64,000 nucleotides of DNA, from positions 64,001 to 128,000 of IMG/VR virus record IMGVR_UViG_3300008120_000059. One strand, given 5' to 3'. The notes beneath the pieces are model-generated. The model searched no databases. It was not told the DNA's origin and saw nothing but the letters and a program-made list of their open reading frames with translations. The translations under genes were made by a program, and so were the position numbers. Shown here piece after piece: positions 24,698-50,011 of the stretch. Source of the DNA: a virus. Within the stretch, counting starts at the first letter, position 1. Every line of letters begins with the position of its first letter.

Positions 24698-24700
24698 TTA

Positions 24701-25051
24701 TTACGTTATTTGAACAACATTAACATTAAATGCACATGGGTAGTAACAATCACTACATCTTAAATCAACTAATGCTAATTGATAACCACCTTGCAATTTT
24801 GGTACCGATGATGGTACAGGGTTTATGTGTCCGTCACAGTGTTCCACAAATACAAAAATTTGTGGTATGTTATCCAATAAACTTATATTAAACGTATATC
24901 CCGTTGATATTGGAATTAAAACTTCAACCCCATTGATATAATTTGCATCATCAATATTATGTGTTAACCCTGTGTAGATATAGTACCCGTTACAAGGTGT
25001 TTGTCCTGAAAAATTTGATATTGTTACTGAGTATGTTACTAATGACGGCAT
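24701..25051 (-). CDS. small beta-rich cassette protein, 116 aa
   Basis: Compact protein without Thr/Pro linker. It begins VTYSVTISNFSGQTPCNGYY and ends in a Cys-containing strand region (LVDLRCSDCYYPCAFNVNVV). The N-terminal pattern and paired Cys resemble the folded modules of the large neighbours. It may be a free-standing module, fibre subunit or tip. It sits 3 nt upstream of the 973-aa gene's start. Confidence 0.65.
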   Translation of the reverse strand: MPSLVTYSVTISNFSGQTPCNGYYIYTGLTHNIDDANYINGVEVLIPISTGYTFNISLLDNIPQIFVFVEHCDGHINPVPSSVPKLQGGYQLALVDLRCSDCYYPCAFNVNVVQIT

Positions 25052-25057
25052 TATTTC

Positions 25058-25066
25058 ATAAATATA
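25058..25066 (-). promoter_or_regulatory. TATTTAT motif upstream of the 116-aa gene
   Basis: TATATTTAT on the coding strand, 6 nt before the ATG at 25051. Confidence 0.4.
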
Positions 25067-25076
25067 AATTCAATGT

Positions 25077-25925
25077 TTAATTACAATAATCGGGATTTAA
25101 ATCACAATCTATAAATGCAATACCACAATAGTTAGGGTCTGTTATGGTTCCACTTAAACCGGTTTGTGCAACTAAGTATTCACCAGCACTTGGATTGAGT
25201 GTAATATTTCCACTATCCTGTGATGAACCAATGAATATTTGCCATTGTGGTGATGTGTATACCGCAATTACCACCCCTGAACTATTAACCTTATAAAAAG
25301 TAATTGGGATATTTGAAGTGGCGGTTGTTACACTACCTAAATTATCTTTTAGTGTCCAAGTAACTTCATATTGTATATTTTCATCTATCGTTTCAATACT
25401 GTACCATAAACAATATGATGAAGGGGTGTTTTGTGTTGGAGTAGGAGTTGGAGTCTTGGTAACTGTTGGGGTTGGTGATAAACCAGGAGTTTTTGTTGGA
25501 GTAGGGGTTGGTGTAATTGAAGCGTTCGGTGTCTTAGATGGTGTAGCGGTAACTGTTGGTGTTTTTGTAACTGTAGGTGTTGGGGTTGGGGTTCTTGTAA
25601 CTGTAGGTGTTGGAGTTGGACTTATTGGTGGGTCACACTGTACCTCAACACTAAAACATAGTGTATCATAACAAGGAAACGCTTTACTATCGTGAGTGTA
25701 AATATTTTTAATTATATAACGACCTGTAGTGTCGTCTGTCATTTTAACCCAATATTGAGTATTAAAACTTAAGTTTGTAATTGTAACAGCTGTAAGAGTT
25801 AAACCTGTTGCGTAAAGTGTAAATGTTGAATTGTTCGTTTCAGGATACGGGCTATCACCGGACTTGTATCTAATTGAGTACGTACCATCATTGATTATAT
25901 TGTATAAACGAACATTTAATCCCAT
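25077..25925 (-). CDS. two-domain Thr/Pro-linker protein, 282 aa
   Basis: An N-terminal beta-sandwich-like domain of about 100 residues contains [20 protein letters not shown], reminiscent of fibronectin-III-type strands. A linker of about 65 residues built from [10 protein letters not shown] units follows. The C-terminal domain is about 110 residues ([20 protein letters not shown]) and ends in a Cys-rich tail, [16 protein letters not shown]. It is the simplest member of the cassette and shows the design clearly: folded head, extended linker, folded tip. Fibre or decoration function is inferred. Confidence 0.7.
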
Positions 25926-25951
25926 TTTTTAATTATTGATTTCTATATTTG

Positions 25952-25959
25952 ATAAATAT
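25952..25959 (-). promoter_or_regulatory. TATTTAT motif upstream of the 282-aa gene
   Basis: ATATTTAT on the coding strand, 26 nt before the ATG at 25925, the longest spacing among the copies. Confidence 0.35.
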
Positions 25960-25988
25960 AAAAAATCCTATTTTATAGTAAAGTTATT

Positions 25989-28553
25989 TTAACATCCATC
26001 ACCAATTGTATACTGAGTAGTTACCGAACCAGAAACTACTTCATAAATTACACTTCCAATTTGAAAAAACCCATCAAATGTTGTTGTTAAGTTATTATTC
26101 GTGTAGATGGTAACACCTGAATCATAAATATTGACCACATTTGGTAATGTGTATAATGTTACACTATACGAACCTGAACACAACACAACCCCACTACAGT
26201 AATTTGTACATCCAACCATATTCCATTCTTGATATGTCGGACTAGGTGTTGGTGTAACTGATGGAGTTTTAGTTGGGGTTGGGGTTTTAGTTAAAGTAGG
26301 GGTTGGGGTTGGGGAAACCGCTACCAAGGATGAACCACAAATTTCGTATAGAGCATTATCATTTATACCATATATTGTATTTGTCGGTACATACAAAGGT
26401 TTAGAAATACCGTCACCAATAATTTCACTAAATATACCTGTTGTCGGGTCTAGAACACCTAAGAATCCATCTGACAATGTTGAATATCTGCTAATATATA
26501 ATTTACCGTTATCAGGATTATATATCATAGACCTTGTTGAGCCAAAAATCCAAGTTGCTCCCGATATTGAATTTAAAGTAAGTGTGGTGTTTGTTGCAAC
26601 ATCTATTTTGTATACCGTAGACGCACTAACTAAATAAATAATATTGTTCGTCACATCCAAAGCAATTAAACTTGCTGAGGTGATTGGTAGTGATGTACCA
26701 TCTAACGAAATAGTATTACCAGAACAAGAATATATTCTACCACTCTGAGCGAAATATAATTTATTATTATTAGGATTGTAAACAGTCGCTTCAGGGTTTG
26801 ATAAAGTTATACCTGTAATTTGGTTTGTAAAAGTATCTGTTGAACCATCTATGACACTAATTTGTGAAACTGAAAAATTTCCACCTGTTTGACTAAATGC
26901 ATAAATTTTATTTAAAACAGAATTATATTCAATTTTTCCTAAACCTGATGTTATTCCCGAAATTGATATTGACGATGTTGTGTTTGTGTTTAAATTTCTT
27001 ATTAACATTTTAACAGGAAATGATGATTCCCAACTGTATAATTTGTTGTTAGTTGAGTTATATCCTAATAATAAACTACTTCCTGACCATGTAAATTCAT
27101 TTGTTAAACTTGTTGAATTTGGGACAAAAGATTGTACAACACTTGATGCGTTTAGAACGTATGCTTTGTTATTTGATGATGAATAAACCATACCTTGTCT
27201 ACCAACGGCAGAATATGAATTCGTTGCGGCAAGAGTATTTCTAACTGAATCACTACAACCACCTGATGGTGTTGGGGTCAGGGTCGGGGTTACGGTATTA
27301 GTAGGTGTTACACTTGGGGTCGCAACTGGATTACCGGATGGACTTGGTGTTGGGGTTTTTGTTGGGGTCGGGGTTGGAGATACAATAGGTACAGGTAATG
27401 TAAAATTCACAGAATTAGTACACGTACCAGTACTTTGAACTGTAAATGTTGTTATTGAATAACACACAAGTGCGGTATACCCAGATAATAATTGAGATGT
27501 TGTCACACCAGTTGCAATTAATACTATAGTTCCTCCTGTTGTTGTTCCCGAAATATTATAAGGTCCGGCTTGCGTTAAAAAATAAATTGGGTGTAATGAG
27601 AATGTATATTGAGTACATCCTGTAGGTACTAGTGAAGGTGATGGGGTTACTGTGGGTGTTACACTAACAGTTACCGAAGGTGTTAATGAAGGGGTATTTG
27701 TGGGTGTATTTGTTGGTGTAACCGAAGGTGTCGAACCTAACGTACTTGACGGTGTATTTGTGGGTGTATTTGTTGGTGTAACCGAAGGTGTCGGAGTTAG
27801 ACTTGGAGTTTTTGTTGGAGTTACAGTATTTGTTGGGGTTGGGGTTTCGGAAGGAGTTTCGGAAGGAGTTTGTGTTAATGTGGGTGTTGGAGTTGGGGTC
27901 ACACTCGGACAAACTACAGTACAGAAACCATTGAAAGATATCCCTGCATATGGGTAACTCGGGTCGTAACAAACATATGTTGGTGAAAATGAACCACTAT
28001 GATATACACCACAACAGTCCGTATAATACCAATTTGGTGAATCGGTTATACCTGAGTAACATAAAGTTGGTGTGGGTGTTGGAGTAGGGGTAGGAGTTGG
28101 ACTTGGTGGTGTTAAACAGTCAATACAATTTGTAAAAAGAGCATTTTCAGAAATTAATTGTGCAACAGTATAATTGTAAGTGGTGCTACCAGTGCCTTGT
28201 TCATAAACTCCTGTATAGTTGTAACATGTACCATCATAAGAAATTGTTGCACCTGTACTTTGGAAATACTGATTAACTTCTGAATTTTTTAAACCAAAGT
28301 AAACAAATGCCCCTGGTATTTGGCAATGTTCAAATTGCCACCCATTAAAATCGTCGTTACATTGTTCACAGGTTGTATAACCACTAAAAATAACCGTACC
28401 TGACGGTCCACCTCCGACATTTCCTGTTGAAGACCAACATTGGTAATCAGCAAAAATCGTGTCACCCGATAATACTAAACTGTCATCGACGACAAAATCA
28501 TAGTATGACGCTGGGTCTAAACAATTTTGAAATGTTATTATTTGTGCTGGCAT
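25989..28553 (-). CDS. Thr/Pro-linker fibre protein with beta-propeller, 854 aa
   Basis: The N-terminal part (about 150 residues) has Cys-containing beta modules (CEQCNDDFNGWQFEHCQ). Next come a short linker, a module with YYTDCCGVYHSGS and a long TPTPTLTQTP-type linker. After a further small domain, residues about 430-740 form a repeat of about 45-50 residues: YNSTNNKLYSWESS, YNSVLNKIYAFSQTG, YNPNNNKLYFAQSG, YNPDNGKLYISRYS, YVPTNTIYGINDNALY. This is the blade pattern of YVTN/NHL-type beta-propellers, with six or seven blades likely. A final linker and a C-terminal module with Cys complete it. Propellers in phage fibres commonly bind sugars or proteins; receptor binding here is inference. Confidence 0.75.
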   Translation of the reverse strand: MPAQIITFQNCLDPASYYDFVVDDSLVLSGDTIFADYQCWSSTGNVGGGPSGTVIFSGYTTCEQCNDDFNGWQFEHCQIPGAFVYFGLKNSEVNQYFQSTGATISYDGTCYNYTGVYEQGTGSTTYNYTVAQLISENALFTNCIDCLTPPSPTPTPTPTPTPTLCYSGITDSPNWYYTDCCGVYHSGSFSPTYVCYDPSYPYAGISFNGFCTVVCPSVTPTPTPTLTQTPSETPSETPTPTNTVTPTKTPSLTPTPSVTPTNTPTNTPSSTLGSTPSVTPTNTPTNTPSLTPSVTVSVTPTVTPSPSLVPTGCTQYTFSLHPIYFLTQAGPYNISGTTTGGTIVLIATGVTTSQLLSGYTALVCYSITTFTVQSTGTCTNSVNFTLPVPIVSPTPTPTKTPTPSPSGNPVATPSVTPTNTVTPTLTPTPSGGCSDSVRNTLAATNSYSAVGRQGMVYSSSNNKAYVLNASSVVQSFVPNSTSLTNEFTWSGSSLLLGYNSTNNKLYSWESSFPVKMLIRNLNTNTTSSISISGITSGLGKIEYNSVLNKIYAFSQTGGNFSVSQISVIDGSTDTFTNQITGITLSNPEATVYNPNNNKLYFAQSGRIYSCSGNTISLDGTSLPITSASLIALDVTNNIIYLVSASTVYKIDVATNTTLTLNSISGATWIFGSTRSMIYNPDNGKLYISRYSTLSDGFLGVLDPTTGIFSEIIGDGISKPLYVPTNTIYGINDNALYEICGSSLVAVSPTPTPTLTKTPTPTKTPSVTPTPSPTYQEWNMVGCTNYCSGVVLCSGSYSVTLYTLPNVVNIYDSGVTIYTNNNLTTTFDGFFQIGSVIYEVVSGSVTTQYTIGDGC

Positions 28554-28597: not shown

Positions 28598-31500
28598 TTA
28601 ACATGCTTCTCCACAAAATGTGTTACAATAATCACCACAACCAGTACCGTATGTATATTGCGAAGTATATATTGGTGGTACGAAGTTTCCTCTAAACAAT
28701 ATAAACACATTTGTCACTCTCATAAGACAAACGCTATAATTACCAGGGGCGTTATAACCTTGTGTTGTGAATGTACCATCACAACATTGGTATGCAAAGT
28801 ATACTTGATTATCATCTGAGGCTGTTAAATCATTAATATCAACAAAAAAGTCTGTACACAAACAATCACCACAAGCACCATCATACGTTATCTCCCCACC
28901 ATAAGGACCTAATACACTTGGAATACTACATGAACATATCTCAATTGTACCACTTGCTGGGTACACATTTGGGTCAAGTATTTCTGTGGGTGTTCCTCCA
29001 CCGCAACAAGTGGTATAGTTAACTATATTACCAGGTCCTAATCCTGTAATAATATATGACTCACAAACACATGGTGGAGTTGGGGTTGGGGTCGGAGTTG
29101 GAGTTGGGGTTGGGGTTGATGACGGATTTGAAACCGGAGATGGTGTTGGAGTGTTTGTTGGAGTGTTTGTTGGAGTTACAGTCTTGGTTGGTGTATTTGT
29201 AGGAGTATTGGTTGGTGTTAAAGTTGGAGTAACTGTCCTTGTTGGAGTATTTGTAGGGGTAAAGGTTGGAGTTACAGTCTTGGTTGGAGTATTTGTAGGG
29301 GTAAAGGTTGGAGTTACAGTCTTGGTTGGTGTATTTGTAGGGGTAAAGGTTGGAGTTACAGTCTTGGTTGGTGTATTTGTAGGAGTATTGGTTGGTGTTA
29401 AAGTTGGAGTAACTGTCCTTGTTGGTGTATTTGTCGGTGTTTTTGTTGGGGTTAAAGTTGGTGTAACTGTTGGTGTAACTGTTGGGGTTGGTGAAGGACA
29501 AGGGTGATAAGTTTCACATTCAGTACATGTATTGTATGTACCATACGCAGTGATTGCGGAACCAGGTACTCCTGGTCCGACTGAGTTTGTAACAAAATAA
29601 CAACAACCATTAATTGATATATAACGGTTTACTAAAAGATTTGGGTTAAATCCATTTTGACAACCAAATTGAATTGTATATTGTCCTGTTGTACCACAAC
29701 ATCCACATCTTTGTAAATCGAAAATCCAAGTGGCGCATGGGTTAGCTCCAATACATGTTTCACATGTATCAACACTAAATGATGATGGTGGATAATACCC
29801 GTCAACCCCACTAAAGTTTGGTGGTGAGTAGGTTTGACTATAACCTTCAACAAAATAACAACATCCATTTATAACAATAGTTTGACCTTGTGAAATACCG
29901 CTTTGAACATAGGTCAAATTAGTTGTTATACTTAAATAAGAAATAGTATTACCTAAAATACCACCATCACAACATGGTAATAAATAAACATAACCAACCT
30001 GTAAGGATGGTGATGGTGTTACTGTGCTTGTTGGTGTTAATGTAGGAGTTAAAGTTGGTGTAACTGTTTTTGTTGGTGTATTGGTAGGGGTTACGGATGG
30101 TGTTCTCGTAGGAGTAACACTATTGGTTGGGGTGTTAGTCGGGGTTAAAGTTGGTGTAACTGTTCTTGTTGGTGTATTGGTAGGGGTTACCGTAGGGCTA
30201 ACAGTGGCGGCTGGAGTTCTTGTTGGAGTAACAGTATTTGTTGGGGTATTGGTTGGTGTGAGAGTTGGTGTAACTGTTCTTGTTGGTGTATTGGTAGGGG
30301 TTACCGTATTCGTAGGTGTAACAGTTCTGGTTGGTGTTGGTGTCGGGGTTGGTGATGGACAAAAATTTAGAGTTTCTCCTAAACATTGTGCACAACTTGT
30401 CTGAACAGTAGTGTAAATCGTACCTCCAGGTCCTACCTGTTGCACATACGTTGCACATAACTGAATGTCTTGTAAATAAAATACCGTACCTAACAATGTA
30501 CCTAATGGTACTTGACCATAATAAACATTGGTGTCACCAGGACAACATGATTCAAATCTAGCAGCAACATACTGAGGACTAGCCGTTGGGGTTACTGTTT
30601 TGGTTGGTGTCAATGTTGGTGTAACAGTATTTGTTGGAGTGTTAGTTGGTGTTACGGTTGGACTAACTGTGGCAGCCGGTGTTCTTGTTGGTGTAACAGT
30701 ATTTGTTGGGGTATTTGTTGGAGTTACCGTAGGACTAACAGTGGCTGCTGGAGTTCTTGTTGGGGTATTGGTTGGGGTAACAGTATTTGTGGGGGTTACT
30801 GTGTTCGTTGGGGTATTGGTAGGTGTATTTGTTGGTGTTAATGTTGGACTAACAGTAGCCGCTGGTGTTCTTGTTGGTGTAACAGTATTTGTTGGGGTAT
30901 TTGTTGGAGTTACCGTATTTGTTGGAGTATTAGTTGGGGTGTTAGTTGGTGTTACAGTGTTGGTTGGTGTATTAGTTGGAGTTAAAGTTGGTGTAACTGT
31001 TCTTGTTGGTGTATTGGTAGGTGTAACTGTATTCGTAGGGGTGACTGTATTAGTTGGAGTGTTGGTTGGAGTATTAGTTGGAGTTAAGGTTGGACTAACA
31101 GTGGCAGCTGGTGTTCTTGTCGGGGTTACGGTATTAGTAGGGGTATTGGTTGGAGTTACCGTATTTGTTGGAGTATTAGTTGGGGTGTTGGTTGGAGTAA
31201 CAGTGTTGGTTGGGGTGTTAGTAGGGGTGTTGGTCGGTGTAACTGTATTTGTTGGAGTAACAGTATTAGTAGGTGTGTTTGTTGGTGTGTTAGTCGGTGT
31301 TAATGTTGGACTAACAGTAGCCGCTGGTGTTCTCGTAGGAGTTACAGTATTGGTAGGAGTATTGGTAGGAGTAACGGTGTTTGTTGGGGTGTTTGTAGGA
31401 GTATTGGTTGGTGTTACAGTATTGGTTGGAGTATTGGTTGGTGTAAAAGTTGGTGTAACAGTTTTTGTTGGTGTATTAGTAGGAGTATTGGTCGGTGTGA

Positions 31501-31819
31501 CAGTGTTGGTTGGTGTTACTGTATTTGTTGGAGTATTGGTTGGGGTATTGGTTGGTGTAAGGGTAGGACTAACAGTGGCTGCCGGAGTTCTTGTTGGAGT
31601 AACAGTATTGGTTGGGGTATTGGTTGGTGTAACAGTATTAGTCGGCGTATTGGTTGGAGTATTTGTTGGTGTGACTGTATTCGTTGGAGTGTTAGTAGGT
31701 GTAAAAGTTGGTGTGACGGTTCTTGTTGGTGTATTGGTTGGTGTAACGGTATTGGTTGGGGTGTTTGTGGGTGTAAGGGTAGGACTAACAGTGGCGGCCG
31801 GAGTTCTTGTTGGAGTCAC
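28598..31819 (-). CDS. C-terminal part of giant Thr/Pro-repeat fibre protein
   Basis: An ATG at 31819 opens this 1,073-aa ORF, but it lies inside the repeat. The frame is open further upstream to a stop at 32101-32099 created by the 20-nt duplication, so this is best read as the downstream part of the giant gene. It has (P-T-x-T)n with a recurring [11 protein letters not shown] motif. Folded Cys modules follow: [16 protein letters not shown] (about 30350-30570), then [13 protein letters not shown] and [14 protein letters not shown] with [10 protein letters not shown] (about 29490-30000). After another linker come two C-terminal modules (28600-29075) with [14 protein letters not shown] and [12 protein letters not shown]. 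These C-terminal modules probably form the tip. Confidence 0.75.
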
Positions 31820-31959
31820 TGTATTGGTCGGTGTGTTGGTGGGTGTGACTGTGTTAGTAGGTGTATTTGTAGGTGTATTAGTTGGTGTGACTGTATTTGT
31901 TGGAGTGTTTGTTGGGGTGTTTGTGGGTGTAACAGTATTAGTAGGAGTATTGGTTGGTG

Positions 31960-34900
31960 TTACAGTTTTGGTTGGAGTGTTAGTAGGTGTAACAGTATTA
32001 GTAGGTGTATTGGTAGGTGTATTGGTTGGTGTAACAGTATTCGTAGGAGTATTTGTTGGAGTATTTGTTGGACTAACAGTAGCTGCTGGTGTTCTTGTTT
32101 AGCTGCTGGTGTTCTTGTTGGGGTTACGGTATTAGTTGGGGTTACAGTGTTAGTCGGAGTGTTAGTTGGTGTATTCGTTGGTGTAACGGTATTTGTTGGG
32201 GTGTTAGTTGGTGTATTTGTTGGTGTTACTGTATTGGTAGGAGTATTTGTAGGACTCAATGTAGGTGTAACTGTATTGGTCGGTGTTAAAGTTGGTGTAA
32301 CTGTCTTTGTTGGTGTATTAGTAGGTGTCTGAGTTGGTGTAACTGTATTAGTCGGAGTATTAGTAGGCGTAACAGTGTTTGTTGGAGTATTGGTTGGGGT
32401 ATTTGTAGGAGTTACCGTATTGGTTGGGGTGTTTGTAGGAGTATTGGTAGGGGTGACAGTCTTGGTTGGAGTATTTGTGGGGGTAACAGTATTTGTTGGG
32501 GTAACCGTATTAGTTGGTGTGTTGGTTGGAGTATTTGTTGGGGTTAGAGTTGGTGTAACAGTTTTTGTTGGTGTATTAGTTGGAGTAACGGTATTTGTTG
32601 GGGTATTGGTTGGGGTATTTGTAGGAGTTACCGTATTAGTCGGGGTATTAGTAGGCGTAACAGTGTTTGTTGGAGTATTGGTTGGGGTGTTTGTAGGAGT
32701 TAAGGTAGGTGTAACAGTCTTGGTTGGGGTGTTGGTTGGTGTAACTGTATTAGTAGGTGTGTTAGTTGGTGTAACTGTATTAGTAGGTGTATTTGTTGGA
32801 GTATTTGTTGGGGTAACAGTATTCGTAGGAGTATTGGTCGGTGTTAATGTAGGAGTAACAGTTCTTGTTGGAGTATTTGTTGGGGTAACAGTATTCGTAG
32901 GAGTATTAGTAGGTGTTAATGTAGGTGTAACAGTCTTGGTCGGAGTGTTTGTAGGAGTATTTGTTGGTGTAACAGTGTTTGTTGGTGTTACCGTGTTTGT
33001 AGGAGTATTGGTAGGAGTGTTCGTTGGAGTATTGGTTGGTGTTAATGTAGGTGTAACAGTATTAGTAGGTGTTAATGTAGGTGTAACAGTCTTGGTTGGG
33101 GTGTTTGTAGGAGTATTTGTTGGTGTAACGGTGTTCGTAGGGGTAACTGTAGGACTCAATGTAGGGGTTACAGTATTGGTCGGAGTATTAGTAGGTGTTA
33201 ATGTAGGTGTAACAGTCTTGGTTGGTGTATTGGTTGGGGTAACCGTGTTAGTTGGTGTGTTGGTGGGTGTTACTGTATTAGTAGGAGTAACTGTAGGACT
33301 CAATGTAGGAGTTACAGTCTTGGTTGGTGTATTAGTGGGTGTGTTTGTTGGTGTAACAGTATTGGTTGGGGTAACCGTGTTAGTTGGTGTGTTGGTTGGA
33401 GTATTTGTTGGGGTATTGGTTGGGGTGACTGTCTTAGTCGGTGTATTAGTTGGGGTTACTGTATTTGTTGGTGTAACCGTATTTGTTGGTGTATTTGTGG
33501 GTGTATTGGTTGGAGTTAAAGTTGGTGTTACAGTTTTTGTTGGTGTGTTGGTCGGTGTAACTGTATTTGTTGGTGTATTTGTGGGTGTATTGGTCGGTGT
33601 AACTGTATTTGTTGGAGTATTTGTTGGGGTGTTAGTGGGTGTAACAGTATTAGTAGGAGTATTTGTGGGCGTATTGGTCGGTGTAACTGTATTTGTCGGA
33701 GTATTGGTTGGGGTATTTGTTGGTGTAACGGTGTTCGTAGGGGTAACTGTAGGACTCAATGTAGGGGTTACAGTGTTTGTAGGAGTGTTTGTGGGAGTGT
33801 TGGTTGGGGTAACTGTATTAGTAGGAGTAACTGTAGGGGTGACAGTTTTAGTAGGTGTATTAGTTGGAGTATTGGTAGGGGTTACAGTATTAGTAGGGGT
33901 ATTTGTAGGAGTTAATGTAGGAGTTACAGTCTTGGTTGGGGTATTTGTTGGTGTAACGGTGTTCGTAGGGGTAACTGTAGGACTCAATGTGGGAGTCACC
34001 GTATTGGTCGGAGTATTGGTGGGGGTTACTGTATTAGTAGGAGTATTAGTAGGAGTATTGGTTGGGGTTACCGTGTTGGTCGGAGTTAAAGTTGGTGTAA
34101 CAGTTTTTGTTGGTGTATTGGTTGGAGTTACAGTGTTCGTAGGGGTATTTGTTGGTGTTAGAGTTGGTGTAACAGTTTTTGTTGGTGTATTAGTAGGAGT
34201 TACGGTGTTAGTTGGAGTGTTGGTAGGTGTGTTAGTTGGTGTTACAGTGTTGGTTGGTGTATTAGTAGGTGTCTGAGTTGGTGTAACTGTCTTGGTTGGG
34301 GTATTAGTTGGCGTTACAGTATTGGTTGGGGTTACCGTATTTGTAGGAGTTACGGTATTGGTTGGAGTAACAGTATTAGTCGGCGTTACTGTGTTAGTTG
34401 GGGTGTTAGTGGGGGTAACAGTATTAGTAGGAGTAACGGAATTCGTGGGAGTGTTTGTAGGAGTGTTTGTTGGTGTTAATGTAGGTGTTACGGTTTTTGT
34501 TGGTGTATTGGTTGGGGTTACTGTATTTGTAGGAGTATTTGTAGGAGTTAAGGTAGGTGTAACAGTATTGGTTGGGGTATTGGTAGGTGTGTTGGTCGGG
34601 GTGACTGTGTTAGTTGGTGTAACTGTATTAGTTGGTGTATTCGTAGGGGTTTGAGTTGGTGTAACAGTATTGGTTGGGGTATTTGTTGGAGTTAAAGTTG
34701 GTGTGACAGTTTTTGTTGGTGTATTGGTAGGAGTTACGGTATTTGTAGGAGTATTAGTCGGTGTCTGAGTTGGTGTTACGGTGTTTGTTGGAGTATTGGT
34801 TGGAGTTAATGTAGGTGTTACAGTCTTGGTTGGTGTATTAGTTGGTGTTACAGTATTAGTAGGTGTAACAGTATTAGTAGGTGTAACAGTGTTTGTAGGT

Positions 34901-37900
34901 GTAACGGTATTGGTGGGAGTCACCGTATTAGTTGGTGTGTTAGTTGGGGTTACGGTGTTGGTTGGAGTAACGGTATTTGTTGGGGTGTTTGTAGGAGTGT
35001 TTGTTGGTGTTAATGTAGGTGTTACGGTTTTTGTTGGTGTATTGGTTGGTGTAACAGTATTTGTTGGTGTGTTGGTGGGTGTGTTGGTGGGTGTTACAGT
35101 ATTAGTTGGGGTATTAGTAGGACTCAATGTTGGGGTAACAGTATTCGTTGGTGTTACAGTATTGGTTGGAGTGTTTGTTGGGGTATTTGTTGGGGTTACG
35201 GTATTAGTAGGGGTATTGGTTGGAGTTAATGTAGGAGTAACAGTCTTGGTTGGTGTATTAGTTGGCGTAACAGTGTTTGTTGGGGTGTTAGTTGGGGTAT
35301 TTGTAGGGGTTACCGTATTGGTCGGAGTGTTGGTTGGTGTTAATGTAGGAGTAACAGTCTTGGTTGGAGTGTTTGTTGGGGTAACAGTATTGGTTGGAGT
35401 CACTGTATTAGTTGGTGTGTTGGTCGGTGTATTTGTTGGGGTTAAAGTTGGTGTGACAGTTTTTGTTGGTGTATTGGTTGGGGTTACTGTGTTAGTAGGA
35501 GTGTTTGTAGGTGTATTAGTAGGGGTATTAGTATTAGTCGGGGTATTGGTCGGTGTAACTGTATTCGTTGGAGTAACGGTAGGAGTTAATGTAGGAGTAA
35601 CAGTCTTGGTTGGTGTATTAGTAGGTGTGTTAGTAGGGGTTACCGTATTGGTTGGGGTGTTAGTCGGGGTAACTGTGTTAGTTGGTGTGTTAGTTGGTGT
35701 GTTGGTCGGAGTTACCGTATTTGTTGGAGTATTTGTAGGGGTTAAGGTAGGCGTAACAGTTCTTGTTGGAGTATTGGTCGGTGTAACTGTATTCGTTGGA
35801 GTTACAGTGTTAGTGGGGGTTACGGTATTGGTCGGCGTTACAGTGTTAGTCGGTGTTACCGTATTAGTTGGAGTATTTGTTGGCGTAACAGTGTTTGTTG
35901 GAGTTACAGTGTTTGTGGGGGTATTGGTTGGAGTATTGGTGGGAGTCTGAGTTGGGGTGACTGTCTTAGTTGGGGTATTGGTCGGGGTAACTGTGTTGGT
36001 TGGAGTAACGGTATTTGTTGGGGTATTGGTCGGGGTATTGGTTGGAGTTAAAGTTGGCGTAACAGTGTTTGTTGGTGTATTGGTAGGTGTTACAGTATTA
36101 GTTGGGGTATTGGTTGGAGTTAAAGTTGGTGTAACAGTTTTTGTTGGTGTATTAGTTGGCGTTACAGTATTAGTTGGTGTGTTAGTTGGTGTGTTTGTTG
36201 GGGTTACCGTATTGGTCGGAGTTACCGTAGGACTCAATGTAGGAGTTACAGTATTAGTTGGTGTGTTGGTTGGTGTGACTGTATTCGTTGGAGTGTTAGT
36301 AGGTGTCTGAGTTGGGGTAACAGTATTTGTTGGAGTATTGGTAGGAGTATTGGTAGGGGTTACAGTATTGGTAGGAGTATTGGTAGGGGTTACAGTATTG
36401 GTAGGAGTATTCGTTGGGGTTAGAGTTGGTGTAACAGTTTTGGTAGGAGTATTAGTAGGGGTTACAGTATTTGTAGGAGTTACCGTAGGACTCAATGTGG
36501 GAGTCACCGTATTAGTTGGTGTATTGGTTGGGGTTACGGTGTTGGTTGGAGTGTTTGTAGGTGTATTAGTTGGAGTAACAGTATTTGTAGGTGTATTAGT
36601 CGGGGTATTGGTTGGTGTTACGGTGTTGGTTGGGGTTAAAGTTGGTGTGACAGTTTTTGTTGGTGTATTGGTTGGCGTAACAGTGTTTGTCGGAGTATTA
36701 GTTGGGGTGTTGGTTGGTGTATTAGTTGGAGTTACAGTGTTGGTTGGAGTGTTAGTTGGTGTTACGGTATTGGTTGGGGTTACTGTGTTTGTAGGAGTAT
36801 TGGTCGGTGTATTCGTTGGGGTTAGAGTTGGTGTAACAGTTTTGGTAGGAGTATTAGTAGGAGTTATAGTATTCGTTGGTGTGTTGGTCGGTGTAACAGT
36901 ATTAGTTGGGGTGTTGGTTGGGGTGTTGGTTGGAGTAACAGTATTAGTTGGAGTATTAGTTGGGGTGTTGGTTGGAGTAACAGTGTTTGTTGGGGTTACC
37001 GTAGGGCTCAATGTGGGAGTTACAGTTTTAGTAGGGGTGTTTGTTGGAGTTACGGTGTTGGTTGGGGTATTGGTTGGTGTGTTAGTTGGTGTAACTGTAT
37101 TAGTGGGAGTCACTGTAGGGCTCAATGTTGGAGTTACAGTGTTGGTTGGGGTGTTAGTTGGTGTATTGGTTGGTGTAACTGTATTCGTTGGAGTGTTTGT
37201 AGGAGTGTTGGTTGGGGTTACAGTATTAGTTGGTGTGTTGGTTGGAGTTAATGTAGGTGTAACGGTTCTTGTGGGGGTGTTGGTAGGGGTTACGGTATTA
37301 GTTGGAGTGTTTGTTGGGGTATTTGTTGGGGTTACGGTATTAGTTGGAGTGTTTGTTGGGGTATTTGTTGGGGTTACGGTATTAGTAGGGGTATTGGTTG
37401 GGGTATTTGTTGGGGTTACGGTATTAGTAGGGGTATTGGTTGGAGTTAATGTAGGTGTAACGGTTCTTGTGGGGGTGCTGGTAGGGGTTACGGTGTTAGT
37501 TGGAGTGTTGGTAGGTGTGTTAGTTGGCGTAACGGTGTTAGTTGGAGTCACAGTCGGACTCAATGTAGGTGTTACTGTATTTGTTGGGGTGTTGGTAGGG
37601 GTATTTGTAGGTGTTACGGTGTTGGTAGGTGTAACTGTTGGACTCAATGTAGGAGTCACAGTATTTGTTGGTGTATTTGTAGGTGTGTTAGTTGGGGTAA
37701 CGGTATTAGTTGGAGTGTTGGTTGGTGTATTTGTTGGTGTTACTGTGTTAGTAGGGGTATTTGTGGGAGTATTTGTAGGTGTTACGGTGTTGGTAGGTGT
37801 AACTGTTGGACTCAATGTGGGAGTCACAGTTTTAGTAGGAGTATTTGTAGGTGTTACGGTGTTGGTAGGTGTGTTTGTTGGGGTATTGGTTGGAGTTACC

Positions 37901-40900
37901 GTATTCGTCGGAGTATTAGTAGGGGTGTTAGTTGGAGTTACAGTGTTTGTTGGTGTGTTTGTAGGGGTATTGGTAGGTGTTACTGTGTTAGTAGGAGTAT
38001 TTGTAGGAGTATTGGTTGGTGTTACGGTATTTGTAGGAGTTACAGTTGGTGTTAATGTAGGAGTCACCGTGTTTGTTGGGGTATTGGTGGGAGTATTTGT
38101 AGGGGTTACCGTATTTGTCGGTGTATTGGTTGGTGTTAAAGTAGGTGTAACCGTTCTTGTTGGAGTGTTAGTTGGTGTAACCGTATTTGTAGGAGTATTA
38201 GTAGGGGTGTTGGTAGGGGTTACAGTATTCGTAGGGGTATTGGTTGGTGTATTCGTGGGTGTGACAGTATTAGTTGGTGTTACGGTTGGACTCAGTGTAG
38301 GGGTTACTGTATTGGTTGGAGTGTTAGTTGGGGTATTTGTAGGTGTAACTGTATTTGTTGGGGTGTTTGTAGGTGTATTAGTTGGTGTAACTGTATTAGT
38401 TGGTGTATTCGTAGGGGTTTGAGTTGGTGTAACAGTATTTGTAGGAGTCACAGTCGGACTCAATGTGGGAGTCACGGTCTTAGTCGGTGTGTTAGTAGGG
38501 GTAACTGTGTTCGTAGGAGTTACCGTAGGACTCAATGTAGGGGTGACAGTGTTGGTTGGAGTATTGGTTGGTGTGTTGGTTGGTGTTACGGTGTTTGTAG
38601 GAGTTACTGTATTAGTAGGAGTGTTCGTAGGGGTATTGGTAGGGGTTACTGTGTTAGTTGGAGTGTTAGTAGGTGTATTGGTAGGAGTAACTGTATTGGT
38701 TGGTGTATTTGTGGGTGTAACAGTGTTAGTTGGTGTGTTAGTTGGTGTGTTGGTAGGAGTTACGGTGTTAGTTGGAGTATTTGTAGGTGTCTGAGTTGGT
38801 GTAACTGTATTCGTAGGGGTTACAGTCGGACTCAGTGTAGGTGTTACTGTGTTAGTCGGGGTAACTGTAGGTGTATTTGTTGGAGTTACAGTGTTGGTTG
38901 GGGTGTTGGTTGGAGTTACGGTGTTCGTTGGAGTATTGGTTGGTGTATTAGTTGGGGTTACTGTATTAGTTGGAGTATTGGTTGGGGTATTGGTTGGAGT
39001 TACAGTCTTGGTTGGTGTGTTGGTTGGTGTTACGGTGTTTGTTGGAGTATTGGTTGGAGTGTTTGTGGGGGTGTTGGTTGGTGTTACGGTGTTTGTTGGG
39101 GTGACTGTATTGGTTGGAGTGTTTGTTGGGGTGTTGGTGGGAGTATTTGTAGGGGTTACCGTATTTGTCGGTGTATTGGTTGGTGTTAAAGTAGGTGTAA
39201 CCGTTCTTGTTGGAGTTACAGTCGGACTCAATGTTGGAGTTACTGTATTGGTTGGTGTTAGTGTCGGGCTTAATGTTGGTGTAACAGTACTAGTTGGGGT
39301 ATTGGTTGGGGTGTTGGTTGGAGTTACCGTATTGGTTGGTGTATTCGTCGGTGTATTTGTAGGTGTAACAGTATTCGTAGGTGTTACAGTTGGAGTATTG
39401 GTTGGGGTTACTGTGTTAGTTGGAGTATTGGTGGGGGTATTGGTTGGAGTAACAGTATTTGTTGGTGTCACAGTCGGACTCAATGTTGGTGTAACAGTTT
39501 TTGTTGGGGTATTTGTCGGTGTCTGAGTTGGTGTTACGGTATTGGTTGGCGTATTGGTAGGAGTATTGGTTGGCGTATTTGTTGGAGTTACGGTATTAGT
39601 TGGTGTGACTGTATTGGTTGGGGTGTTAGTCGGCGTGTTCGTAGGGGTGTTGGTTGGTGTTACCGTATTTGTTGGTGTATTAGTAGGTGTGTTAGTAGGT
39701 GTTACTGTATTTGTAGGCGTGTTCGTGGGAGTCTGAGTTGGTGTTACAGTGTTAGTAGGAGTGTTAGTTGGCGTGTTAGTGGGTGTAACAGTATTAGTAG
39801 GAGTCACCGTTGGACTCAATGTAGGTGTAACAGTATTGGTTGGTGTGTTGGTCGGAGTGTTGGTAGGAGTTACAGTATTAGTAGGAGTCACCGTTGGACT
39901 CAATGTAGGTGTAACTGTATTTGTTGGGGTATTTGTTGGGGTATTGGTAGGAGTTACTGTATTAGTCGGAGTGTTGGTCGGGGTGTTGGTTGGAGTAACA
40001 GTGTTGGTGGGAGTATTGGTTGGAGTGTTAGTTGGTGTATTTGTTGGGGTTACGGTGTTGGTTGGAGATACCGTATTTGTAGGAGTATTGGTTGGAGTGT
40101 TAGTTGGGGTTAGTGTTGGGGTTACGGTGTTTGTTGGGGTATTGGTAGGTGTATTGGTTGGTGTAACGGTATTTGTAGGAGTAACAGTGTTGGTTGGAGT
40201 ATTGGTAGGACTTAATGTTGGCGTATTAGTTGGGGTTACGGTGCTGGTTGGAGTCACTGTTGGACTCAATGTAGGTGTAACTGTATTTGTTGGTGTGTTG
40301 GTAGGAGTGTTTGTAGGAGTCACAGTATTAGTAGGAGTCACAGTTGGACTTAATGTGGGAGTTACTGTATTAGTTGGAGTGTTGGTAGGTGTGTTAGTTG
40401 GGGTTACTGTATTTGTCGGGGTATTGGTTGGGGTATTTGTTGGTGTAACGGTGTTGGTCGGAGTGTTTGTGGGAGTATTTGTAGGAGTTACTGTGTTCGT
40501 AGGAGTTACTGTAGGACTCAATGTTGGTGTTACTGTATTTGTTGGGGTGTTAGTAGGAGTGTTTGTTGGAGTCACCGTGTTTGTTGGGGTATTGGTGGGA
40601 GTATTTGTTGGTGTAACAGTATTTGTTGGGGTGTTAGTTGGGGTGTTGGTAGGAGTTACCGTATTGGTTGGTGTGTTAGTTGGGGTGTTGGTAGGAGTTA
40701 CCGTATTGGTTGGTGTGTTAGTAGGAGTGTTTGTTGGTGTAACAGTATTGGTTGGTGTGTTAGTAGGAGTGTTTGTTGGTGTAACAGTATTGGTAGGAGT
40801 TACAGTTGGGGTGTTGGTTGGAGTTACAGTATTAGTAGGCGTATTGGTAGGAGTATTAGTTGGAGTTACTGTATTTGTAGAAGTATTGGTAGGAGTATTG

Positions 40901-43900
40901 GTAGGGGTGACAGTATTGGTGGGCGTATTGGTAGGAGTATTGGTTGGGGTGACTGTATTTGTTGGAGTATTTGTTGGGGTGTTAGTTGGAGTTACTGTAT
41001 TTGTAGGAGTATTGGTAGGAGTATTGGTAGGGGTGACAGTATTGGTGGGGGTGTTTGTAGGAGTATTGGTAGGGGTGACAGTATTGGTTGGAGTATTAGT
41101 TGGGGTGACTGTATTTGTTGGAGTATTTGTTGGGGTGTTGGTAGGGGTGTTGGTAGGAGTTACAGTATTGGTTGGAGTAACTGTATTGGTTGGAGTGTTT
41201 GTCGGGGTATTTGTAGGTGTCAGTGTCGGTGTTACGGTATTTGTTGGAGTATTAGTAGGAGTGTTAGTTGGTGTAACCGTATTTGTTGGTGTATTTGTGG
41301 GTGTATTGGTAGGAGTAACTGTATTGGTAGCCGTATTGGTAGGAGTGTTGGTTGGTGTATTAGTTGGTGTGACTGTATTGGTCGGAGTTACCGTCGGTGT
41401 ATTTGTTGGGGTTACGGTATTGGTAGGGGTTACTGTTGGTGTATTCGTAGGCGTGTTTGTTGGGGTTACGGTATTTGTTGGAGTATTAGTGGGGGTATTC
41501 GTAGGTGTATTGGTTGGTGTTACGGTGTTAGTTGGGGTATTTGTAGGGGTTTGAGTTGGTGTAACGGTATTGGTTGGAGTCACTGTTGGACTCAATGTTG
41601 GCGTTACCGTATTGGTAGGAGTATTAGTTGGCGTATTGGTAGGAGTAACTGTGTTGGTTGGGGTGTTGGTAGGAGTGTTAGTTGGTGTTACAGTATTAGT
41701 TGGTGTGTTAGTTGGTGTGTTTGTTGGTGTTACGGTGTTCGTAGGGGTGTTAGTAGGTGTCAGTGTTGGGGATACCGTATTGGTAGGAGTGTTAGTTGGT
41801 GTATTTGTAGGGGTTACCGTATTGGTAGGAGTATTAGTTGGTGTATTTGTAGGAGTAGCAGTATTAGTAGGGGTATTTGTTGGAGTATTGGTCGGTGTTA
41901 CAGTGTTTGTTGGAGTGTTGGTTGGTGTTACAGTGTTTGTTGGGGTGTTTGTCGGAGTGTTGGTTGGGGTATTCGTTGGTGTTACAGTATTTGTAGGGGT
42001 TACGGTGTTGGTTGGAGTATTGGTGGGGCTTAATGTTGGGGTATTTGTAGGGGTTACGGTGTTGGTTGGGGTCGCTGTTGGAGTCAATGTAGGTGTAACT
42101 GTATTGGTTGGGGTATTGGTAGGAGTATTGGTTGGGGTAACAGTATTGGTAGGAGTAACTGTTGGACTCAATGTAGGAGTAACTGTATTGGTAGGAGTGT
42201 TTGTTGGTGTATTGGTTGGTGTTACAGTATTAGTTGGAGTATTTGTTGGAGTTAAAGTTGGTGTAACAGTTTTTGTTGGTGTATTAGTTGGGGTGTTAGT
42301 AGGAGTTACTGTATTGGTTGGTGTGTTTGTGGGAGTATTGGTTAATGTAACGGATGGTGTTACAGTGTTGGTTGGTGTTACCGTTGGAGTATTGGTGGGT
42401 GTTGGGGTGCTCGTTGGAGTTGGTGAGGGTAACATTGTATAATCAATGTCACAAGAAGGTGCTGGTGTTGGTGAAACCGTCACAGTTACACTTGGTGTAT
42501 TTGTTGGAGTTACAGTATTGGTTGGAGTTACAGTATTTGTCGGGGTGTTTGTGGGGGTAACTGTATTGGTTGGAGTCACTGTTGGACTCAATGTTGGTGT
42601 TACAGTGTTAGTAGGAGTGTTGGTCGGCGTGTTAGTTGGAGTATTGGTTGGTGTTACGGTGTTAGTTGGTGTTACCGTAGGACTCAATGTAGGAGTCACA
42701 GTATTGGTAGGTGTATTGGTTGGAGTATTGGTTGGTGTTACGGTGTTAGTTGGTGTTACCGTAGGACTCAATGTAGGAGTCACAGTATTCGTTGGTGTGT
42801 TTGTAGGTGTATTAGTCGGAGTTACGGTGTTGGTTGGAGTTACGGTATTTGTGGGAGTGTTTGTAGGAGTGTTGGTAGGAGTGTTTGTTGGAGTTACGGT
42901 GTTGGTTGGGGTATTGGTTGGGGTATTGGTTGGTGTAACGGTATTTGTAGGAGTATTTGTAGGTGTCTGAGTTGGAGTTACTGTATTCGTCGGTGTGTTT
43001 GTTGGGGTGTTGGTAGGAGTTACGGTATTGGTAGGACTTAATGTTGGAGTGTTAGTTGGAGTATTTGTTGGAGTTACTGTGTTGGTTGGAGTATTCGTAG
43101 GTGTAACCGTATTTGTTGGTGTATTAGTTGGGGTGTTTGTAGGTGTATTAGTTGGTGTCACAGTTTCTGTTGGAGTCACTGTAACAGTATTGGTTGGTGT
43201 GACTGTATTGGTAGGGGTTACGGTGTTGGTTGGTGTAAGTGTTGGTGTTTCTGTGGGAGTATTTGTTGGTGTGTTGGTGGGGGTATTTGTTGGTGTTTCG
43301 GTTGGTGTATTTGTAGGTGTATTAGTTGGAGCTACCGTATTTGTTGGAGTTACAGTTGGAGTGTTAGTTGGGGTAACCGTTGGTGTAACAGTATTGGTAG
43401 GAGTATTGGTTGGGGTTTGAGTTGGTGTAACGGTTGCAGTATTTGTTGGTGTTAGGGTAGGTGTTTCAGTTTGTGTTACAGTGGGTGTATTGGTTGGAGT
43501 TACAGTATTGGTTGGAGTTACAGTTGAGGTATTAGTCGGAGTGTTAGTTGGTGTTATGGTGTTGGTTGGGGTATTGGTAGGTGTTTCGGTAGGGGTAACG
43601 GTTGGACTCAGTGTTGGTGTTACTGTGTTAGTCGGAGTATTAGTTGGGGTGTTGGTTGGTGTTTCGGTAGGGGTAACGGTTAGGGTTACGGTGTTGGTTG
43701 GAGTATTGGTTGGTGTTTCGGTTGGTGTTTCGGTTGGTGTATTAGTTGGGGTAACAGTATTGGTTGGAGTTACAGTTGGGGTAACAGTTGGGGTAACAGT
43801 TGGAGTTACGGTGTTGGTTGGGGTATTGGTTGGTGTTTCGGTTGGTGTTTCGGTTGGTGTATTAGTTGGGGTAACAGTATTTGTTGGGGTGTTAGTGGGT

Positions 43901-44748
43901 GTTTCAGTCGGTGTATTAGTTGGGGTATTGGTTGGTGTTTCGGTAGGGGTTACTGTATGAGTTGGTGTATTGGTAGGTGTTTCGGTAGGGGTTACCGTAT
44001 TTGTTGGAGTTACAGTTGGAGTTTCGGTAGGGGTAACTGTATTTGTTGGGGTGTTGGTAGGTGTTTCAGTTGGTGTATTGGTTGGGGTTACCGTATTTGT
44101 TGGGGTTACAGTTGGAGTTTCGGTCGGAGTAACAGTTGGTGTCTCGGTTGGTGTAACTGTATTCGTAGGAGTTACAGTAGGTGTGTTGGCTGGTGATTCG
44201 GTTGGAGTTACTGTGTTAGTTGGGGTAACTGTAGGAGTTTCAGTTGGGGTAACCGTTGGGGTATTTGTTGGGGTATTGGTTGGAGTTACTGTGTTAGTTG
44301 GAGTAACTGTAGGAGTTTCAGTTGGGGTAACTGTAGGCTCGTTTGTTGGAGTATTAGTCGGAGTTACGGTATTCGTAGGAGTATTTGTTGGAGTGATAGT
44401 ATTGGTTGGGGTAACAGTAGGTGTTTTTGTAACCGTAGGTGTAACAGTAGGGGTTTTGGTAACTGTTGGGGTTGGGGTATTTGAAGTAAAGGTTGTTGGT
44501 GTTGGTGTTAATGATGGTGTAAGTGTTGGTGAAGGTGTAGGTGAAGGTGTAGGGCAAGGAATCTCAGCCACACAAGTTTTATCAAGTGACGGAAAATAAA
44601 CTGAGTAAGTACCTAAGTAGTAGTTTGTGTCGTAATAATATGGCATCACGACAGTACCTAAATTCAAGGTACCGCCAGTACAAGGATAAAATGTGATAAC
44701 ACCAATTTCACCATCAAAATTACCTGTGTTTATTTTTATTAATGCCAT
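31960..44748 (-). CDS. N-terminal part of giant Thr/Pro-repeat fibre protein, 4,262-aa ORF
   Basis: About 66 N-terminal residues form a folded domain ([37 protein letters not shown]). More than 4,000 residues of nearly unbroken x-T dipeptides follow, mostly [10 protein letters not shown]. The only break is [15 protein letters not shown] (42430-42462). The first few hundred repeat residues are more varied (E, S, H, I). The last 46 residues ([20 protein letters not shown] and on) are out of frame because of the duplication at 32081-32120. Removing 20 nt would restore one frame from 44748 to 28598, 5,377 codons including stop. A stalk-like tail fibre or surface filament is inferred. The role is not established. 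Confidence 0.75.
32081..32120. repeat. 20-nt tandem duplication that breaks the giant ORF
   Basis: agctgctggtgttcttgttt at 32081-32100 is followed by agctgctggtgttcttgttg at 32101-32120, differing only at the last base. Because 20 is not a multiple of three it shifts the frame and creates a TAA in the downstream frame. Deleting one copy reads [12 protein letters not shown] in frame, a motif found repeatedly nearby. Confidence 0.9.
37289..37414. repeat. exact 42-nt tandem copies inside the giant repeat
   Basis: Units 37289-37330 and 37331-37372 are identical, and 37373-37414 differs at a few bases. Each encodes 14 residues ([14 protein letters not shown] in register). This is a recent expansion within a region that is otherwise diverged at synonymous sites. 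Confidence 0.8.
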
Positions 44749-44838: not shown

Positions 44839-47800
44839 TCATGGACAATCAAAAATGGAACTACTTAATTCCTCATTAGTTGGTTCTGTAGGACAATGGT
44901 TGGCATCGATATAATATTGACCGAGGTTGAATCCAATATTTGGATGTTTATCGTATTTGTGTTTCATCAGAATTTGGTCGCTGTTATTTCCATTGAAAAC
45001 AACAACAAATTCATCAGTTAGTGGTGTATTGTCTAATTCAAAATTTAGATTGAAGTATAATCCTGTATCGCAATAATTTAAGTCGACATCAATTACTTCT
45101 ATGGTTTTACCATATTTGTTTATTAAATAATCCCCATGGTTATATAATTCTTTCGGATGGTCACAACAAGGTTCAATAAAATCTGTTGGTTTTTTTTGTA
45201 ATTCCTCTGGGAACCTATCGTCAAAAAAGTAAACACTATTTGTAGGTGTTCCAAAATTTTCAATGATTCTATTTGTATAAACTCTTAGTTGTGTTGTTGG
45301 TAAAACTTCAAAAACTTCATAAGTATTATTTTGGGTTAATCCTGTAATGATACTTTTCTTGATTGATGCTAAACATTCAATGTCTGTAATTTCAAGTTTT
45401 TGATAGTTGTACGTAAATGAATACCCTGATACAGGTCCATTCACAATTTGTTGGTGACTATATTCTGTACATTGTTTGTAAGATGCAGATAAAACATATT
45501 CCCCAACATTTAAATCACAAACACTTTTACCACTTATCGTACCACCACTAATATAACTTTCAATATTGTCATCTGTAGTTTGGTTGTCAATGGTTAATCC
45601 GCTATCAACTACTAAAACTATAGAGTCACATTTTAAACCATAGTTAAAGTTTGATTTGTATTCAACTTTTGGTTGTATTGTGTAACCTGTGTAATTGTCA
45701 CAATATGTTGCACCTGAAACAACTGAAATTGGGGATGATATTGTTCCTTGGTAACCAACAATACTAAATAATTCTACGTGACTTTTTCCTGATGGTGTTG
45801 GACATGGGTCATGTTCAATTTTGGGTTGTAGACCTTCAATTTTGAATTTTACTTCTTTATTTGCTGCATCTACAATATTAAAATCTATTACATCATTTTC
45901 TGAAAAACCAGTTAATTTATATACACAATCACTAACTTTTTGAATGTAAACATCCGCATTTTCATTTGTTCCACTTACACAATTAGCATAAATGTTAAAT
46001 GGCCATGTTGAACCTTGTTGGATACCTGTTTTGTATCCAATTACTTCAAAAAACACATCACTCACTAATGTACATCCACTGTTTGAGTCGCAATAAACGG
46101 TATTATCAGTATAAACTTTAACACTGATTCCATTTGTATTTTTTGTGATTTTGTAATCGGCATCAAATCGATAATCAAAATAGTCGACCACTGAACATTC
46201 GTTTGGACCTAATTTTACGGATGAAAACTTAACTTTTTCAACACCATTTTCATCAGTGTATGTTGTGTATTTTATTAATGGTATTGTTTCTGAAAAATAT
46301 GTTTGGCCTGTGGTTCCCGTGAAAGCAGAATAGGGTTCATACCCTGCACTATTTCTTGTAATAGTTACGTCATCAATCAATACAGATAACGCCGATAACC
46401 ATAGTTCTTTAATTTTAGTAACATCAGGTTCAAGATAATCTTTATAATCACATATTAAGGAAAGATTTACCGTATCACCACTGGTGACCCCACTTGTACA
46501 TCCTGTAAATGGTTGTGCATCAAATAATTTTGCACTGTTTGAAGTGTTACTTGTTCCACTAACAATCACATACATAGAGGATGTTAGACCCGTGTAGTCG
46601 GCCCCACCATAAACTGTTCCATCAATTTCAATTACAGGATAGTAAGTAACACCTGTAAGGTTTATTAAACCTCTAAAATTATTTTCTTCACCTAAAATAT
46701 TTTCTAAATCTTCCTCAATTACATTTTCAAAATCAGGGTATAGTTCCTCAATAAATTCTAATGGTTGACAATCATATCTATATTGATATTTTGGTCTACC
46801 AAACACGTTATTTTCTATTAAATTACCGCCGGTCCATTGAGTGGTTGATGGTACTAATTGTTCAACTAATTGTGGCCAATAAGGTGATAATTTATTAACA
46901 AATTCAATAACATTTATTTGATTATATGGTGTAAAACCTGTTGTTTGTGATATATAATCTCTATAGACATCTTCTAATTGAATATAATTTTTTTTGTAAC
47001 GAATTTTGTTAGAATTTGTTACAAGTCCATGAATAAAGGTGTCTAAAAATTCAGCAAAAGTTTTACCTGTTTGGGGTAATAAAGTATTTGTACCAAAACT
47101 TATTAATAATTCTCTACTTTGTCTAAAGATATCATAATCTATACCTCGTGATGGTGAGATATAAATTCCAATGTTTTTTCTATTTAAAATTAATAAATAA
47201 TCATCCTCAATTGGTTTTCCGTCTTTATTATCGACCGCGGAAACCAATTCATAACCGGTATCTAAACCTGGTAATGTTCTATATAAATCAAAGTATTCTT
47301 CTCCGTATGTGTAGTTTTTATTCTTTGTTTTAATTGTTTTGGTGTTACCCGTTAGTATTGAGTTACTACTGTCTAAAACGAGTGGAGTACGGTGTGATAA
47401 TGTAATATCGTACCATCCTGAACCTTTACCAAAGAATATGTTTTCAGTTTCGTTATATGCTCTTCTTGGTAGTCCAGTTTTTTCGTCTACAGGGTAACCC
47501 TCTCTGTCAAATGTTGTTGACGCTGAGTAGTAAACTTTAGAATATGTGAAACCTGTACTATCAAAGGTGGCGTAAGAATATCTTTTGTTACCTTGAATCG
47601 CATCGTATATGTCTTGTTGTAAATTAAAACTAGATGGAATTGACGTTACTTTATAAATGTATTCATCAATCCTAATCAAAGGCTCGGGTGCCCCCAAAAA
47701 TTTTAAAAAGAAATCAATAGAGGATTTTGTTCCTTTTGATTTATAAATGTGAGCAAGATTTATAAGTAATCTTCGATAAAACTCATACTCAGCTTCAATT

Positions 47801-50000: not shown

Positions 50001-50011
50001 GTTTTTTTATA

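Follow-up and report, generated by a model that had tools for sequence, protein, structure and literature searches.

A giant (Ser/Thr)-X stalk gene, probably for a contractile-tail fibre, and the likely assembly mis-join that splits it in one phage genome

Fibre genes of contractile-tailed phages, as in Flavobacterium phage immuto and Microcystis phage Mel-JY01, lie after gp25-like and gp6-like baseplate genes, and their products consist of an N-terminal domain, a shaft and a tip that diverges faster than the neighbours. The same arrangement is seen for a giant gene in a 64,000-nucleotide (nt) stretch of viral DNA, hereafter the window, which comprises bases 64,001-128,000 of the 162,907-base IMG/VR virus record IMGVR_UViG_3300008120_000059; in its relative L023, for instance, identity is 97% in the neighbouring 1,414-amino-acid (aa) protein and 38% in the tip. 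Unlike the known contractile-tail fibres, the shaft of this gene product is a polymer of 4,777 aa in which Ser or Thr alternates with another residue, i.e. an (S/T)-X stalk, and the compared stretches of immuto and Mel-JY01 held no Pro/Thr (P/T)-rich plus-strand open reading frame (ORF) of at least 150 aa. Also unlike known phages, the N-terminal domain (N-domain) and the 1,414- and 305-aa neighbours are unmatched, the N-domain having no match at E 0.01 in 50,697 phage records.

With respect to size, the stalk protein is about equal to another single phage protein, gp96 of Thermus phage P23-45, a tape measure protein of 5,002 residues and 549.6 kDa that was found in virions (PMC10770324, accessible part). 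A first-pass annotation of the window, made from its letters, had called the length exceptional, which is fair, although gp96 makes it not unique. Unlike the stalk protein, gp96 is a tape measure with an RNA polymerase part, and the accessible part of PMC10770324 describes no low-complexity stalk in it. With respect to composition, the stalk resembles the amino-acid tandem repeats of Borgs, which are likewise P/T-enriched with units divisible by three, and which are mostly predicted to be disordered and possibly modified (PMC9879509, accessible part). The Borg repeats are nearly all perfect and are described in that part of the source as recent, whereas the stalk copies are near random at third codon positions and are kept at the protein level.

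That the window holds one giant gene is practically certain. The best overall explanation, to which we assign a probability of about three in four, is a single 5,473-codon gene encoding a giant fibre of a contractile-tailed phage, with the frameshift in the window being a mis-join.

The intact gene and its break in the window

In the window, the gene appears on the minus strand as a pair of ORFs, 31960-44748 (4,262 aa) followed by 28598-31819 (1,073 aa, counted from the first GTG), with a duplication between them:

28598..44748, minus strand: giant stalk gene as found in the window, equal to the intact 16,419-nt ORF except at the junction, where it carries the probable mis-join
32080..32119, minus strand: perfect 20-nt duplication, read as a mis-join of intact-gene nt 12,649 to 12,917 with 268 nt absent

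The same gene was found in 16 other IMG/VR contigs by means of N-terminal, C-terminal and junction pieces combined by coordinates; nine of these span both gene ends and seven hold one end only. Six of the nine spanning contigs (3300005527_000042, 3300031784_000011, 3300031787_000004, 3300031963_000003, 3300027816_000051 and 3300031758_000017) are byte-identical over the gene and carry an intact allele of 16,419 nt in one open frame, 5,473 codons with stop, encoding a protein of 5,472 aa and about 564 kDa with 2,471 Thr and 1,095 Pro. Together with the homologues L022 and L023, which are single ORFs of like architecture, they uphold the first-pass proposal that the two large Thr/Pro ORFs are one gene, and the candidate reading as two separate genes is ruled out by the same evidence. 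The proposed length of 5,377 codons did not hold. Its arithmetic was correct, in that the span of 44748-28598+1 = 16,151 nt less one 20-nt copy gives 16,131 = 3 x 5,377, but the 268 nt absent from the window at the junction make the count too short.

The duplication itself is present. It had been placed at 32081-32120, and Tandem Repeats Finder reports the same perfect 2.0-copy repeat with a 20-nt unit at 32080-32119, one base shifted. Among the perfect abutting duplications in the window whose units measure 15-60 nt, 12 in all, only this one has a unit indivisible by 3, the other 11 having units of 18, 30, 42 and 57 nt. In the 0-based coordinates of the intact allele, the window agrees with it over 0-12,649, picks up again at 12,917 and from there follows it through to the gene end. 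No exact repeat in the gene is longer than one of 116 nt, whose copies are at 12,627 and 12,915 (offset 288 nt), and the duplicated 20-mer occurs in the intact gene at two sites only, 12,629 and 12,917. Thus, a piece ending in the first copy and abutted to a piece starting in the second, with the shared 20 bases untrimmed, would give an apparent duplication. The description as a tandem duplication is right in that 20 nt are doubled, but what lies there is not a pure duplication.

Other assemblies break at the same place. Contig 3300008108_000023 jumps from 12,607 to 12,917, the same resume base as in the window, and 3300008116_000055 jumps from 12,741 to 12,992; two contigs start at the repeat (3300008259_000003 at 12,917 and 3300021598_001198 at 12,940) and two end there (3300021598_001798 at 12,718 and 3300008111_000027 at 12,741). 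In a hand-made list of ten break coordinates, drawn up without 3300008107_000074, all are within 25 nt of the repeat copies, a zone equal to 2% of the gene. Contig 3300008107_000074 (L041, L063, L082) has three separate jumps within the stalk, 12,677 to 12,917, 11,628 to 11,777 and 13,345 to 13,386, which implies that assemblies of this phage fault the stalk gene repeatedly. Of the two origins that the first-pass annotation offered, an assembly artefact is thus the one borne out: the break in the window is very likely an assembly error at the 116-nt repeat and not a genetic switch.

The other origin offered was an on/off state of the phage population, in which the 20-nt duplication toggles between one and two copies and turns the tip domains off. 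A perfect out-of-frame tandem duplication does exist in the window, and 20 nt is a unit size that slippage might expand or contract. However, an exact match to single-copy junction DNA was found in 10 contigs (3300031787_000004 being an eleventh, placed by coordinates), and the IMG/VR scans, from which the window's record or a closely similar one may be missing, had 0 other contigs with an exact match to the duplicated form. Of the two states, related genomes beyond the window showed only the single one. Moreover, the other aberrant contigs (3 of 9 spanning) jump differently, with different breaks at the same repeat, and while states made by slippage would differ by whole repeat units only, here 268 nt are also gone, which slippage of a 20-nt unit leaves unexplained. 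Phase variation is therefore hardly credible.

Nor does a real strain variant, in which a biological 268-nt deletion in the stalk put the junction out of frame and shortened the protein so that the tip was lost, account well for these breaks. The resume point 12,917 is common to the window, 3300008108_000023 and 3300008107_000074, as a shared deletion would have it; the same point is elsewhere the plain end of a contig. If the two 116-nt copies had recombined, 288 nt would have been lost with the frame kept, whereas the observed jumps are of 268, 310, 240 and 253 nt, and their ends are therefore not at matching repeat positions. In addition, the flanks of the window gene equal those of 3300005527_000042 at 10,000 of 10,000 and 9,997 of 9,997 bases, i.e. 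over 19,997 nt, which leaves the surroundings of the gene without a visible strain difference. The flanks of the other contigs equal those of the window as far as they reach, with three exceptions: 3300008111_000027 and 3300021598_001798, upstream, each at 9,999/10,000, and 3300008113_000438 at 9,823/10,000 in a gapless comparison. The last is a one-ended contig, identical over the 10,234 nt compared; another one-ended contig, 3300032093_000031, begins at gene nt 8,169. These two and a third one-ended contig, 3300008452_007696, have their breaks away from the repeat. We regard a strain variant as very improbable and retain the mis-join.

The protein and its alternating stalk

The intact protein runs from an N-domain of 65 aa into a T-rich stalk at aa 54-4,830 (4,777 residues) and ends in Cys-rich modules interspersed with short stalk pieces. 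In the window, its parts are:

44554..44748, minus strand: N-terminal domain of about 65 aa, six predicted beta strands, mean predicted local distance difference test score (pLDDT) 82.3
32100..44553, minus strand: (S/T)-X stalk upstream of the junction, S+T at 99.7% of 2,050 alternate positions (aa 101-4,200)
30587..32099, minus strand: stalk downstream of the junction in the real gene frame, carrying [12 protein letters not shown] motifs
30341..30586, minus strand: Cys module A, 82 aa, similar segments seen by eye in L022 and L023
29480..30013, minus strand: Cys module B, 178 aa in two halves, 53-61% identical in L022, L054 and L055
28601..29077, minus strand: C-terminal Cys-rich tip, 159 aa, 35-46% identical in L022, L023 and L054

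At aa 101-4,800 of the intact gene product, one parity consists of 2,282 Thr and 52 Ser among 2,350 positions, while the other parity is 0.3% Ser/Thr (S/T). Heterozygosity on the S/T parity is 0.02, 0.04 and 0.70 at codon positions 1, 2 and 3. After the junction in the window, S+T make up 97.1% of 244 alternate positions, with heterozygosity of 0.68 at codon position 3 and 0.06 at positions 1 and 2. Compared at 18 lags (6-288 nt), the stalk copies agree at only 29-36% of third codon positions, implying that the copies are old. Pro follows the same register: in the main stalk (aa 735-4,819) it occurs on the X parity only (856 vs 0), and all 855 Pro-Pro distances are even; among four relatives, L022, L023 and L024 have a single odd distance apiece and L093 has none. 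Two 666-aa stalk pieces, from the window and from L024, matched no Pfam family at E 0.01.

The pattern recurs in six relatives (L016, L022, L023, L024, L089 and L093), where S+T occupy 99.4-100% of one parity and 0.5-15% of the other, while T:S ratios and X residues vary widely; in L023 the S/T parity has 681 Thr, 569 Ser and 0 other residues in 1,250. Counting the main gene with these six, seven long stalks have Ser or Thr at 99.3-100% of alternate positions. Since the S/T parity is kept while T:S ratios and X residues differ, the conserved feature is a hydroxyl at alternate residues.

It could be argued that the stalk is passive low-complexity sequence, grown through slippage or unequal exchange, and that the register just follows units that are multiples of 6 nt. 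Among the repeats listed, 150 of 346, the stalk units are indeed nearly all of this kind (12, 18, 30, 42, 72 and so on), and in-register duplication would keep the parity without selection. But the copies are old in the main gene and yet S/T stays at 99.3-100% in all seven long stalks with Thr and Ser interchanged, and drift alone would not preserve hydroxyl residues exclusively. Given the synonymous divergence, in-register duplication can account for the period, but a limitation to Ser and Thr is hardly to be expected from it. Passive growth as the full account is accordingly improbable, although the repeats may have arisen passively, and the codon patterns argue for strong selection for an (S/T)-X polymer.

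A further question is whether the stalk is an ordered beta fibre, e.g. an oligomeric beta ribbon or spiral, and not a glycosylated extended chain. Beta fibres are usual in phage tails, the strict two-residue period and the limitation of Pro to the X parity (856 vs 0) would suit such a fold, and Pro on one parity would leave one strand edge able to pair. Pro at every 4 or 6 residues, as found here, is on the other hand unfavourable to sheets, and the stalk pieces modelled alongside the tip have pLDDT near 30. We consider a beta fibre rather unlikely, though less so than passive growth.

The tail locus and the wider family

The stalk gene follows gp25-like and wedge genes and a conserved block in a tail and baseplate cluster, whose members in the window are:

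44839..49083, minus strand: 1,414-aa protein upstream of the stalk gene, present in 9 of 9 long-stalk loci tested
49083..57910, minus strand: conserved tail-locus block of 305-, 388-, 277-, 586- and 1,374-aa proteins
57963..59795, minus strand: baseplate wedge subunit, Pfam Baseplate_J just under the cut-off
59797..60249, minus strand: baseplate wedge protein, gp25-like
21776..28553, minus strand: 854-, 282- and (judged from repeats) 973-aa proteins with short P/T linkers, and a 116-aa protein without

Pfam and PHROG searches of six proteins upstream of the stalk gene gave no match. The record also encodes a tail sheath and a baseplate hub, which together with the baseplate wedge genes indicates a contractile-tailed phage. 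In tblastn searches of the nine long-stalk loci (one of them same-species), the 1,414-aa neighbour is 66-100% identical; eight of the loci have it within 450 nt, and L019 at a distance of about 1.2 kb. The remaining block members are present as far as the stretches extend. The short-linker locus L028 has the block as well, at 41-71%, and its N-domain gene lies some 2.9 kb past it; the other fifteen remote loci searched by tblastn have none of the 15 proteins used as queries.

The N-domain has 102 relatives in viral contigs, of which 80 were kept; a pattern search through bacterial and archaeal genomes, covering 84,980 species, gave 112 matching stretches, none of which was confirmed. We inspected 72 loci, namely the 80 minus 11 same-species loci plus 3 from another search. 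Two same-species loci apart, N-domain identity reaches 70% or more in 17, all of which continue into a P/T/S stalk: 14 run beyond their stretch (some after only 100-200 stalk residues), one ends at 255 aa, and two, L022 and L023, are complete homologues of 2,737 and 2,940 aa with similar modules. The other 53 loci have remote N-domains (at most 54% identical) and alternating runs of at most 292 residues; they are not independent, 20 of them (L112-L131) being the same 800-aa protein by length and ends. In this sample, the giant stalk thus marks one clade within a wider short-linker family. A literature search, in which subscription papers were scarce, found the family undescribed among the matches listed.

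Several side observations were made in these stretches. The window encodes at 8203-9312 a 369-aa ORF with tandem repeats of 18-126-nt periods, including a perfect 57-nt duplication, and without a Pfam or PHROG match, and at 9606-10418 a phage-encoded sigma-70-like factor with regions 2 and 4. A thymidylate synthase at L071:6439-7764 has its profile match split over two or three stretches, as if insertion-bearing; a short-linker N-domain relative at L133:6960-9632 has a weak terminal intein-splicing-like match (E 0.00073, under the cut-off); and Microcystis phage Mel-JY01 (L068 3084-3683) has an annotated prolyl 4-hydroxylase upstream of its distantly related baseplate cluster.

A proposed fibre and its meaning

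With its conserved N-terminal part, shaft and variable C-terminal tip, and its place in the tail cluster, the stalk protein is probably a fibre. In such a fibre, the small N-terminal beta domain would anchor the protein to the virion by binding the baseplate, the 4,777-residue (S/T)-X stalk would hold the Cys-rich tip far from the tail, and the C-terminal Cys-rich modules would form the receptor-binding tip. If fully extended, the stalk would have a contour of 1.5-1.6 µm, an upper bound from a simple rise per residue.

Several points weigh against this interpretation. The virion role is assigned from gene position. A Foldseek search with the N-domain fold against PDB and BFVD had no match at E 0.001, and the tip modules are modelled as beta-rich in a weak model (mean pLDDT 51.6). 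As for the mis-join, three of the nine spanning contigs have other lengths and net frames (15,989, 16,109 and 16,166 nt), and 3300008452_007696, which covers 7,890 nt before it breaks off, shows gaps of 42 and 258 nt in its alignment; we read these as further probable assembly faults. The comparison being one of assembled contigs, a rare real variant may also exist in the window's sample. Finally, genes for glycosyltransferase family 2 (GT2) are as frequent with short linkers (8 of 8 records) as with long stalks (8 of 10). Homology to known fibre domains likewise gave no trusted match in sequence (N-domain and module B profiles) or structure (N-domain fold): Pfam had no match to the N-domain or tip modules, and in profile searches against solved structures the N-domain had one match at E 0.95, and module B matched 7ong_A over 31 residues (E 0.00026, with no single stretch passing) and another entry at E 0.15, none of them trusted.

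The stalk is a dense Ser/Thr/Pro tract of the mucin-like kind, and its hydroxyls suggest O-glycosylation or a regular extended structure, for either of which regularly spaced hydroxyls could have been kept. Perhaps the stalk is O-glycosylated, as far as composition can tell. Outside the window, at record positions 51259-63368 (L071:13259 to L072:6368), lies a run of 15 plus-strand genes, in contrast to the record at large, in which 113 of 152 listed ORFs are minus-strand; ten of the 15 have Pfam matches at E<=0.01, two of them only below the curated cut-off, to glycosyltransferases, sugar epimerases (including UDP-GlcNAc 2-epimerase and NAD epimerase) and FkbM methyltransferases. As a marker of long stalks, glycosyltransferases were tried and rejected, for a GT2 match at E 0.001 is found in 16 of 18 records (above the cut-off in 14) and does not discriminate. 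Being equally common with short linkers, GT2 does not single out the stalk and is compatible with glycosylation without being evidence for it.

With the tempting but unsupported phase-variation story removed, the case shows how assemblies break giant repetitive phage genes, namely by jumping, at the longest exact repeat, from one position to another that does not match it. What remains odd is a very long phage protein with a hydroxyl at almost all alternate positions along thousands of residues, and the same hydroxyl rule in relatives despite differing X residues and T:S ratios. We tentatively raise the possibility, on balance a doubtful one, that these are virion appendages of a new class, namely fibres of micrometre scale, each from one gene, with strictly alternating (Ser/Thr)-X sequence, selected over more than 2,000 dipeptides, perhaps decorated by glycosyltransferases of the phage itself, and re-grown to about 2,000-4,800 residues in a clade of phages that we take to be freshwater from the kind of IMG samples. 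What makes a phage keep this polymer, and whether the chain is glycosylated or folded, can be addressed by direct experiment.

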